Shown here: one piece after another, positions 25,925-30,229 of the stretch
Position numbering within the stretch: position 1 is the stretch's first letter
Layout of the letters: each line of letters begins with the position of its first letter
Assembly: GCA_023266115.1 (NCBI GenBank)
Contig: JAHFRU010000003.1
Coordinates: forward strand, 129,978 to 193,977
Direction: 5' to 3'
DNA from: Gammaproteobacteria bacterium
Lineage (GTDB): Bacteria; Pseudomonadota; Gammaproteobacteria; VBWC01
Length of the DNA: 64,000 bases
Notes under the pieces: generated by a model
Databases searched by the model: none
What the model saw: only the letters and a program-made list of their open reading frames with translations
Told to the model about the DNA's origin: nothing
Program-made: the position numbers and the translations under genes

Positions 25925-28900
25925 TCAACGGGCGCGCGCCAGCCGGAAACCGATACGGTTGCTGCGCGTGTCGGCCGTGTAGTGTGACCGTTTGCTCGAG
26001 CGCAGGTCGTTGATTGTGGTCATGAACGATCCGCCGCGCGCAGCCCGTTCCTGACATGCCGATGTCGTCCGGGCGCTGCCGTCGGTCGGCGCGCCTTGAT
26101 AGTTTTCGTAATAGCAGTCCTGCACCCATTCTTCGACGTTGCTTGCGGTGTCGTGCAAGCCGAAGGCATTGGCCTGATACTTCCCGACCGTAAACGCGCC
26201 GTCGCGATCCCAGTCGCCGCCACAGTCAAGGCAGTTGGCCGGTACCGGTTTGACGTCACTGTCCCACCAGAAATACGTGATACTGCCCGCGCGTGCAGCA
26301 TATTCCCATTCGGCCTCCGTCGGCAGGCGGTACGCGTGACCGGTTTGTTGCGACAGCCAGTCTGTGTAGGCCGTGGCATCGTGCCAGTTGATCCTGGTCA
26401 CCGGACGGTTACCACGGCCCCGTCCTTCGTCGTTCGGCCGTTGCCTGCCGGTAGTGTCGGCGAACTTGTCGTAGTCTGCGAACGTCACCTCGTATTTTGA
26501 AATCGCGAAGCGCGATACCGTTACATGGTGCTGTGGACGCTCGCTAAAGTTCTGCGAAACGCCGCTGGCTCCCATTTCAAAGTCGCCAGCCGGGAGTTCG
26601 ATCATGGTTGGGCCGCTATCGCCATCGACCAGCCGGTCCCGAAATGATCGTATCGGCCCCGGCCCTGGCGTTGCGTCTGCCGTTGGCGACCCTTCGCCGT
26701 TTCCGGAATTCTTGTTTGTCTCGTCCTCGCCGGTGGTATGCGGCGCTGTCGATAGCGCCTGCGGTAACGGCTTTCCAAGATAGATCCACGCGCCGCTGAC
26801 CAGTCCGGCAATCACCAATAGAGCGATACTTGCCTTCGCGACACGGCCGCTGACGCTGGTGGTCACGCCGGTGCTTGCGTGGGACGGAATCTGCTTGGCC
26901 TTTTCGATGGCCGCCTCAAGTCTGCCGCGGTGCTTTTCCGACTGCACAAGCTCCTTCTCGTACCTGGCCAGCGTTTTCGTCGTCTCTTTGTCCCGTGCCG
27001 CCAATGCCTCTGCCTTATCGGTTTGCGCCTGCAGCCTGGCCTTGAGTTCTTCGCCCTCGCGCATCAACTTGGCGAGCTTGTACTCCGACTCGCGTTCAAT
27101 TTTCTCGATGATCGCTTCCGCGTCTGACTGATGGTCTGCCAGTTTGGCACGCTTTTCGGATATCTCGGCCGCGGCCTCCGCGGTGCGCTCGGCAAGCTCT
27201 CGGCGGGCAGACTCGCGCTCCTCTTGTGCCGACAACAGCTCGCGTTCGAGCCGCTCGCGGGTATCCTGCTCAGCGGCCGCCAGTCGCGCGCCGAGTTCAT
27301 CGACTTCGCCTTGCAACCGTTCGGCATTACTCGCGAACTCGCCGGCACGGGCATCCGTCGCTGTCGCCTCGTTCTTTAACGATTCGATCTTGGCTTCGGC
27401 CTGCGTCAGCTGTTGCCTTGCCGTGTCCCGTTCGCCGCATGTCTGCTCGAGCTGTTGCCGAACCTGATTAATATCGTCTTGTATCTGATCGGCACCGCGC
27501 GCTGCTGCGGCCGACCCGGCGCGCGTCTCATCGAGTTCCTGGCGCAGCCTGTCGATCTCATCGGTTTGCGATGTTTGCGCGCGCGAGTCGATGCCCAGCT
27601 GCTGTTCGATTTCCTCGATGCGGTCGGCATGGCGTTGGGCCAGGGTCTGTGTGTCGCCAAGTTGCTTACTTAGCTGGTCTCGCTGCGACTCGAGTTGTTG
27701 TATTGTGGAGGCGAGGCCGTTCGCCGCCTTCGTCGAACCCTCCGCGAGTTCGTTAACCGTCTGCTGTAACGACACGGTCTTTGCGTCGGCCTGCCGCTTA
27801 TCCTGTTGCAGCTGATCGATCGCTGTGCGGCTATTCGTCAGTTCCGTCTCCAGCGCCTGATTCTCTGCCGCGTGTTGCCGTGTAGCCTCCTTATGCTCAG
27901 TTGACGTTCGCTCCAGCCGATCACGCAGCTCCTCAGCTTCCTTTTGCAGCGAGTTGTGGCCCTGCTCGGCCTCAGTCCGCTTACTGGCAAGCTCGCCCAG
28001 TTGCCGTGTCAGGGACGCGACCTCGTCGCGCAGCCCGGTCGAATCCCGTTGAGCGTCATCCAGATCCTGCCGGATCTTGACCAGTTCTGTGCCGCTGGTC
28101 TTTGCATCGTGCTGCGCGCCCTCCGCGGATTTCCGCAGGTCCGCGATCTCGCGTTCCAGTGCCGAGCTATGACTGTTGGCGTCGTCAAGGGCCTGCTGTA
28201 CCCGGACCAGCTCCGTGCCGGCAGCGTCGACATCGCGCCGCGCCGCATCAGTCGTCTGCCGCAATTCAGAAATTTCGTGTTCGAGTTTCTCCGCTCGGGC
28301 CTGCGCGTCTGTGGCATGCTGCGAGGTACTTGCCTGTGATTCCACAACCTGTTTCAGCTCACGTTGGCGGTTCGCCAGCTCTTTATCGTGTGCCTCCCGG
28401 TCGAGTTGCGACTGCCGCTGCAGTGCGTCGAGCTCGGCACGGAGCCGCTCTGTCGCTTCCACCGCAGTGCGCTTGGCCTGTTCCGCCTGCTGGATCTGTG
28501 CCGCCATCGCCTCGCCGCCTTTCGCCGTTGCATCCAGCTGACGTTTCAGATCGCCAAGCTCAGCCTCGATGCGCCGGCTGCTGGTCACGGCAGCTGTCTT
28601 TTCGCCGATCGCCGCATCCAGTTTGTCGGTCGCGCCACGCAGTTTCGCGGTAAGTTCGCCGAGTTCGCTACGTAGCCGGGTGGCCGCGTCGTTAGACGAT
28701 CCTTCGGTTTCGGAGAGCCGTCGCGTCAGCGACGCGATCTCGCGTTCCAGCAGCCCGCGGTTCTGCTCTGATTTGGCGAGCGCCTGGCTGCGGCCGTCGA
28801 GGTCAGCGCGCACGGCGGCGAGTTCAGCGGTGAGTTTTTCCGTAGAATTCCGCGCCTGCTGTTCGATTCGCGCGGCAGTGACGGCGGTATTTTCCCGCGC

Positions 28901-30229
28901 GTCTGCCTGGGCCTGTTTGAGCGCGTCGAATTCCCCGGTCAGACGGGCGACTTCGCGTTCGGCATTACCGCGAGCCTCTGTTTCGCCGTGCAGCATCTGC
29001 TGGATGCGTGTTTGGGCGGTTTTGATCTTGAGCAATTCCTTTTCGGCGTTGAGACGCGCCTCGACAGCTTTTTTATAGGTTTTTTTCGGTACCGCGTCCG
29101 CGCCGTCGGCAGCTCTTTCTGGCGACTCATTTGGGGGTGTTGGCGATTTTACTATCGGGATCACGTCCGCCGCGCGCGCAGAATTTTCCACGGGAACTGA
29201 GTTAAGACCGCCGCTGAGAACTCGCGCATCGATGCCTTTCTGATTCAGAAAAAAGGTCGCGGCGTTGCTCAGATGCCCGTCATTGCAGCAGACAATGTAG
29301 GTAATGCCCGGCTCAAGCGAGTTGACGTTGTCGCGCAGCGTCGCATACGTCATGCTTATGCTTCCTGCAATATGCTTGGCCTGATACTCTTCTGCCGTTC
29401 GGACGTCCAGCCATTTCGCACCGCCGTTGATGAACGTCACCGCTTCCTCATAGGTGGTGTCCGTCGCCAACGGCTGGTTCAGCAGCTCGAGAAACGCTTT
29501 CTTCGGCAGCTTCATCAGCACGCCGTCGGTGAGCATTGTGATCGTGGCGCCGCGTTTGGCATCGGACAACAGTGCGTCCTCGCCGAAGCTGTCGCCGACG
29601 CCGAGTTCGGCAAGAACGGCTTCTTTACCGCCCGCGCCGCTGCGGCTGACCTTGCAGCGTCCGGATTTTATCGTGTAGCAGCAGTCACCATTGTCACCTT
29701 CGCTGAACACCTTTTCTCCTGCCCGTAGCGATGCCGGTTCCATACCGGTGATCAGGCGGCTGATGTTCACCGGCGGCAGTTTCTGAAATACGCGCGAGCG
29801 CAACATCAGCGACATCCAGTCGTCGTCATCACCCTCGTCGATTGCGCCGACCGCGAATCCGGACAGCGAATCGCTGCCGATCAGAACTTCAAGCAGATTG
29901 GTGCCAATAGTTGCGATAGTCGCGGTCTTTGTGACACGGGCCGAGCAGGTACGTGGTTGTTTCGGTGCGAGCGCCTCGAGGGCGTCTTTGCTGCCGCCCT
30001 TGATCGAGGCGATCTCGACGTCCTCGTGATCCAGAAGCGCGACGATGCCTTTGATGACAAAGTAGGTGTTGTTGTCCCGCTCGCCGTGTTTGAACAGGTA
30101 ACGCCCGATAGCGACGTCATGGATGTTGATCTTCTCGACTACCTCCGCGAATCGCTCCGGCGCCAGTCCTTTCAGCGGCGTAAAGTCTTTCAGAAGGTCG
30201 CTCGTCAGCGACTTTTTTGCAGCGTCCAT
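25925..30229 (-). CDS. Multidomain cNMP-binding/rhodanese/coiled-coil/FGE-like membrane protein
   Basis: 1434 residues from ATG 30229. In order: cyclic-nucleotide-binding-like domain about 20-125 (FTPLKGLAPERFAEVVEKINIHDVAIGRYLFKHGE); a second, more canonical one about 150-265 (FSEGDNGDCCYTIKSGRCKVSR, GDSFGEDALLSDAKRGATI); rhodanese about 270-355 with WLDVRTAEEYQAKHIAGSI and loop CNDGHLS; a coiled coil of roughly 700 residues (Ala/Glu/Arg/Gln heptads); one membrane helix (ASIALLVIAGLVSGAWIYL); then an FGE-sulfatase-like domain about 1215-1434 (MIELPAGDFEMGASG, RLPTEAEWEYAARAG, ERAARGGSF, RIGFRLARAR). The FGE catalytic cysteines are not seen at the usual place, so it is probably a binding module. 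Only one helix is seen, so one end is cytosolic. Divergent from the hydrolase gene. Function unknown. Confidence 0.85.
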   Translation of the reverse strand: MDAAKKSLTSDLLKDFTPLKGLAPERFAEVVEKINIHDVAIGRYLFKHGERDNNTYFVIKGIVALLDHEDVEIASIKGGSKDALEALAPKQPRTCSARVTKTATIATIGTNLLEVLIGSDSLSGFAVGAIDEGDDDDWMSLMLRSRVFQKLPPVNISRLITGMEPASLRAGEKVFSEGDNGDCCYTIKSGRCKVSRSGAGGKEAVLAELGVGDSFGEDALLSDAKRGATITMLTDGVLMKLPKKAFLELLNQPLATDTTYEEAVTFINGGAKWLDVRTAEEYQAKHIAGSISMTYATLRDNVNSLEPGITYIVCCNDGHLSNAATFFLNQKGIDARVLSGGLNSVPVENSARAADVIPIVKSPTPPNESPERAADGADAVPKKTYKKAVEARLNAEKELLKIKTAQTRIQQMLHGETEARGNAEREVARLTGEFDALKQAQADARENTAVTAARIEQQARNSTEKLTAELAAVRADLDGRSQALAKSEQNRGLLEREIASLTRRLSETEGSSNDAATRLRSELGELTAKLRGATDKLDAAIGEKTAAVTSSRRIEAELGDLKRQLDATAKGGEAMAAQIQQAEQAKRTAVEATERLRAELDALQRQSQLDREAHDKELANRQRELKQVVESQASTSQHATDAQARAEKLEHEISELRQTTDAARRDVDAAGTELVRVQQALDDANSHSSALEREIADLRKSAEGAQHDAKTSGTELVKIRQDLDDAQRDSTGLRDEVASLTRQLGELASKRTEAEQGHNSLQKEAEELRDRLERTSTEHKEATRQHAAENQALETELTNSRTAIDQLQQDKRQADAKTVSLQQTVNELAEGSTKAANGLASTIQQLESQRDQLSKQLGDTQTLAQRHADRIEEIEQQLGIDSRAQTSQTDEIDRLRQELDETRAGSAAAARGADQIQDDINQVRQQLEQTCGERDTARQQLTQAEAKIESLKNEATATDARAGEFASNAERLQGEVDELGARLAAAEQDTRERLERELLSAQEERESARRELAERTAEAAAEISEKRAKLADHQSDAEAIIEKIERESEYKLAKLMREGEELKARLQAQTDKAEALAARDKETTKTLARYEKELVQSEKHRGRLEAAIEKAKQIPSHASTGVTTSVSGRVAKASIALLVIAGLVSGAWIYLGKPLPQALSTAPHTTGEDETNKNSGNGEGSPTADATPGPGPIRSFRDRLVDGDSGPTMIELPAGDFEMGASGVSQNFSERPQHHVTVSRFAISKYEVTFADYDKFADTTGRQRPNDEGRGRGNRPVTRINWHDATAYTDWLSQQTGHAYRLPTEAEWEYAARAGSITYFWWDSDVKPVPANCLDCGGDWDRDGAFTVGKYQANAFGLHDTASNVEEWVQDCYYENYQGAPTDGSARTTSACQERAARGGSFMTTINDLRSSKRSHYTADTRSNRIGFRLARAR

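Follow-up and report, generated by a model that had tools for sequence, protein, structure and literature searches.

Gene and domain architecture

The window, a 64-kb stretch of DNA that belongs to a 3.1-Mb genome in 46 contigs, carries on its minus strand a single open frame at 25925-30229 (25928-30229 without the stop codon). Its 1434-residue product joins a head of two cyclic-nucleotide (cNMP) binding domains, CNBD1 and CNBD2, and a rhodanese domain to a long coiled coil, a membrane helix and a C-terminal FGE-like tail:

25925..30229, minus strand: entire gene, 1434 codons and a stop; starts with the ATG at 30229, with GTG at 30256 as the alternative
29879..30109, minus strand: CNBD1, aa 41-117, degenerate cNMP-binding domain (weak match, E 2.4e-6)
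29474..29731, minus strand: CNBD2, aa 167-252 (E 1.5e-22), signature F215-G216-E217 ... R226-G-A-T
29198..29428, minus strand: rhodanese domain, aa 268-344 (E 1.2e-10), active-site loop C315-N-D-G-H-L-S
26864..29065, minus strand: 734-residue coiled coil, aa 389-1122, predicted to lie in the cytoplasm
26777..26833, minus strand: single membrane helix, aa 1133-1151, predicted N-in/C-out
25934..26614, minus strand: FGE/PvdO-fold domain, aa 1206-1432; Cys 1333, 1336, 1372 and 1392 invariant, no FGE catalytic Cys pair
30584..31651, plus strand: divergent DUF900 alpha/beta hydrolase; as it adjoins the gene within the genus alone, it is left out of the system

The family alignment begins close to the ATG at 30229, and the alternative GTG start would lengthen the protein by 9 residues. 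An initial sequence-only reading had described five kinds of module in this chain, and all five are borne out by Pfam matches (cNMP_binding in two stretches, E 1.5e-28; Rhodanese, E 1.2e-10; FGE-sulfatase, E 5.2e-54), by heptad analysis and by the hydrophobic helix. A second genome of the genus holds the same frame with 95% identity, and the nearest named record, from a metagenome-assembled Gammaproteobacteria bacterium, is 95% identical over the whole protein. Between the two genomes dN/dS is 0.21 for the whole gene, 0.12 for the cNMP part, 0.11 for the FGE part, 0.30 for the rhodanese and 0.27 for the coil; the overall value and the low values of the cNMP and FGE parts show that purifying selection acts on the gene and that the frame has not arisen by chance. 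The protein is thus real and conserved, with known domains in a conserved combination, and a literature search found no paper describing this architecture. Rfam gave no match in the window.

The coil, cited in the sequence-only reading as some 700 residues of heptads, is substantiated at 734 residues with one proline and with phase shifts along its length; its heptad (3.5-residue) power is 4.24 as against 1.03 +/- 0.23 in shuffled sequences (maximum 2.2, n=300). The chain has one hydrophobic helix only, and in most relatives Lys and Arg are richer on its N-terminal side, which places the FGE part outside. The predicted topology, with head and coil inside and the FGE-like part outside, agrees with the earlier layout, which set the sensing modules and the FGE module on opposite sides of the membrane. 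We read the protein, tentatively and at slightly less than even confidence, as a tether anchored in the inner membrane, whose head would be a sulfurtransferase responsive to cAMP and whose tail would bind a ligand in the periplasm. The Lys/Arg bias and the purifying selection, at its most stringent in the cNMP and FGE parts, both count in favour of this tether.

Distribution in the class

Among 369 sampled genomes of the class Gammaproteobacteria, the head occurs in 153 and the tail in 99. The architecture had been called unusual, and so it is, although it is not unique: 24 sampled relatives, one of them congeneric and the remaining 23 spread over 13 further families, carry head and tail in one frame. 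The coil of these full-length relatives varies from about 370 to 1300 residues, and 683-1300 residues (368 in one) separate the last residue of the head from the membrane helix. In two further genomes (G055 and G229) head and tail lie on separate contigs, and in another (G204) the frame is interrupted. The head is also found alone (about 355 residues) or on other coils. In a quick tree, made by a short tree search, FGE-fused heads cluster, with 5 changes compared with 18.7 under shuffled labels, as expected of an old architecture inherited mostly by descent. A plasmid search for named relatives found none. Four loci (L119, L120, L126 and L127) hold adjacent pairs of paralogues with head and coil and without the FGE domain, divergently arranged in L119 and L120.

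The cyclic-nucleotide and rhodanese head

Of the two cNMP domains, only CNBD2 looks competent to bind, as judged from its residues. Specifically, CNBD2 belongs to the cNMP fold (PF00027) and has the phosphate-binding Gly-Glu ... Arg; across 55 aligned head modules, the Phe, Gly and Glu of its signature are present in 55/55 and the Arg in 53/55. CNBD1 retains a PR..A motif in these modules and is without the Glu of the F-G-E signature. The rhodanese domain (PF00581) has the C315-NDGHLS loop, and its cysteine is kept in 48 of the 55 modules (25/26 FGE-fused, 11/11 stand-alone and 12/18 on other coils). Since the CNBD2 signature and the rhodanese cysteine are kept to this degree, a cyclic-nucleotide and sulfane input, as the sequence-only reading had envisaged, is plausible, with the qualification that CNBD1 is degenerate. 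We count the retained signature residues in favour of the tether. Counted against it are the missing rhodanese cysteine of L102, an FGE-fused relative, and of 6 out of 18 modules on other coils, as well as L320 of the window protein, which stands where relatives commonly have Arg. Structural modelling of the head gives a pLDDT of 87 within the domains; their arrangement is uncertain (pTM 0.53), which likewise weighs against the tether.

Among solved proteins, the head comes closest, by sequence and fold, to the tandem cyclic-nucleotide domains found in PKG and in the regulatory subunits of PKA. The head differs from these proteins in that it has no kinase link, its first cNMP domain is degenerate and a rhodanese is attached. 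A further comparison concerns the family 2 encapsulins, of which 2B bears a cNMP domain and 2A systems have links with sulfur metabolism and rhodaneses (PMC8346489); these differ in being HK97-fold shell proteins, and the match to them is weak and was made only by a stand-alone head, through its cNMP domain.

The presence of the head is associated with adenylate cyclases. A class I or III cyclase is encoded in 150/153 genomes with the head compared with 107/216 without it, which counts in favour of the tether (class III, 138/153 compared with 102/216; class I, 92/153 compared with 16/216). The Fisher p-value of 4e-28 overstates this association, owing to kinship among the genomes and their unequal sizes. 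The genome of the window has one class I cyclase, 6.7 kb beyond the end of the window, and two of class III, one of them near a CRP-family gene. In one other genome (L136:1437-4217 and 4322-5473), a stand-alone head gene adjoins a class I adenylate cyclase gene, a further point in favour, and three head-bearing genomes with neither cyclase class are a point against. At another locus (L139:5586-8273), a stand-alone head gene adjoins one for a GAF-PAS-GGDEF-EAL protein.

Neighbouring genes and versions of the locus

Gene neighbourhoods were surveyed at 29 loci, comprising the window, its genus relative and further genes of the family, complete or partial. Immediately downstream and in the same orientation, 15 of the 29 have a PfkB sugar kinase gene, a Rieske gene or both, which counts in favour of the tether; an HU-like gene lies upstream in 10 and a TerB gene occurs in 9. 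Within the 64-kb window PfkB and Rieske gave no match, though they may lie elsewhere in the genome; that the gene lacks them as neighbours is counted against the tether. In the window and its genus relative the neighbours are instead FeoB and the DUF900 hydrolase, and since each adjoins the gene within the genus only, both were rejected as partners. The hydrolase at 30584 had been raised as a possible conserved neighbour; that proposal does not hold beyond the genus, and elsewhere the PfkB kinase and Rieske protein are common. Scans for a CRP-like site and a sigma-70-like promoter found none near the gene, with fewer matches than chance, which also weighs against the tether. Two genes away, at 32405-33301 on the plus strand, the window encodes a regulator of the CRP/FNR type that is probably FNR-like and whose N-terminus is rich in Cys (CRHCGLLQLC). 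At one locus, the PfkB kinase and Rieske protein are fused in one frame (L145:2656-3984) that adjoins the FGE-tail gene.

The PfkB-Rieske locus occurs in several versions. Headless versions, with both genes in L131 and with Rieske in L130, encode a shorter protein that keeps helix and FGE domain, and a tailless version (L114) has head and coil without either. The part common to all three is the coil, which would suit a pure scaffold or cell-organising filament, such as a polar or membrane organiser, whose head serves localisation and whose enzyme folds are relics. The Pseudomonas aeruginosa protein CbpA (PA4704), with a degenerate first and an intact second cNMP domain like the window protein, lends weight to this idea, for it reportedly takes up a polar position that depends on cAMP, as described by Endoh and Engel in 2009. 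The conserved CNBD2 and rhodanese signature residues and the low dN/dS in the head argue against a scaffold, and we consider it unlikely. The intact cNMP domain of CbpA binds cAMP (reviewed in PMC7247823 and PMC11139211), and its cAMP binding and polar location are both cited (PMC3019171, PMC7247823). Membership of the CbpA family was rejected: CbpA is distinct and shorter, with two cNMP domains only, and a CbpA-like gene adjoining PrrF in genome G158 (L166:8482-9372), which is without rhodanese, coil and FGE domain, shares 26% identity with the window protein over CNBD2 only. The same genome has a separate, true member of the head family (G158:C21, E 1.7e-89).

The FGE-like tail

The tail has the FGE fold by Pfam match and by structural model (pLDDT 91), in which the best match is PvdO and the next FGE, a result that counts in favour of the tether; PvdO is also its closest sequence. 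The catalytic, copper-binding Cys pair near the C-terminus of FGE is absent from the window protein and from all 31 aligned domains, its positions being occupied by other residues, in line with the remark of the sequence-only reading that obvious catalytic cysteines are lacking. Four other cysteines (1333, 1336, 1372 and 1392) are invariant and would suit disulfides in an oxidising compartment.

PvdO is a periplasmic FGE-fold protein needed for pyoverdine maturation. Its nearness in structure and sequence raises the alternative that the tail is a PvdO-type periplasmic enzyme which the remainder of the protein anchors and regulates. This seems very unlikely to us, given the missing Cys pair and a score against the PvdO model far under its cut-off (151 of 500 bits). 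The window protein further differs from PvdO and from formylglycine-generating enzyme (SUMF1), with which it shares the fold, in its membrane tether and in being without the FGE catalytic Cys pair. Formal assignment to PvdO (NF051459) was rejected at 151.3 bits against the curated cut-off of 500, as were the EgtB, SenA and OvoA sulfoxide and selenoxide synthases (77.9/360, 56.8/420 and 41.5/400 bits), all under curated cut-offs. The genome of the window (G000) is rich in this fold, with ten family matches on contigs C5, C6, C14, C28, C35 and C36. Two of these matches form an adjacent tandem pair (C14:111867-113524), and one of the two (L001) carries a pair of cysteines close to the region that is catalytic in FGE.

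Related FGE domains occur in the same class in proteins (L132, L134 and L135) that place them across a single membrane helix from a cytoplasmic PP2C phosphatase; unlike the window protein, these have no cNMP domain, rhodanese or long coil. Such exchange of the cytoplasmic part is typical of receptors, and the protein could thus be a periplasm-to-cytoplasm receptor whose FGE-like domain senses a ligand and whose coil relays the signal to the head, with the cyclic nucleotide as co-input. A coil of 370-1300 residues and variable length would be a poor rigid transmitter, however, and the tailless L114 version sits at a PfkB-Rieske locus, so that a receptor, too, appears improbable.

A putative cAMP-linked tether

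What is seen in relatives points to a cAMP-linked tether that would join cytoplasm and envelope. In this model, the coil would dimerise and keep the head away from the membrane by tens of nanometres; at about 0.15 nm per residue its reach could be up to about 100 nm if unbroken. Binding of cAMP, or another cyclic nucleotide, to CNBD2 would alter the head, including the persulfide-forming rhodanese cysteine or a bound partner. For most relatives, the PfkB-type sugar kinase and the Rieske protein encoded alongside are the probable partners. In turn, the periplasmic FGE-like domain may bind an envelope ligand and thereby position the complex, or report the ligand. Coupling of second-messenger sensing to an envelope ligand, as the sequence-only reading had proposed, is possible.

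In its broadest form, which we regard as quite doubtful, the proposal describes a class of sulfurtransferase tethers under cAMP control that is conserved in Gammaproteobacteria. These membrane-anchored coiled-coil proteins, with a length of up to about 100 nm, would couple sulfane-sulfur chemistry, PfkB and Rieske to a periplasmic ligand, with cAMP acting otherwise than through a transcription factor. To our knowledge, bacterial non-transcriptional cAMP receptors are few. The head, present in about 40% of the sampled genomes and nearly always together with an adenylate cyclase, would be a widespread candidate for such a receptor, and the complete, headless and tailless versions at the PfkB-Rieske locus offer a natural deletion series for assigning roles to its parts.
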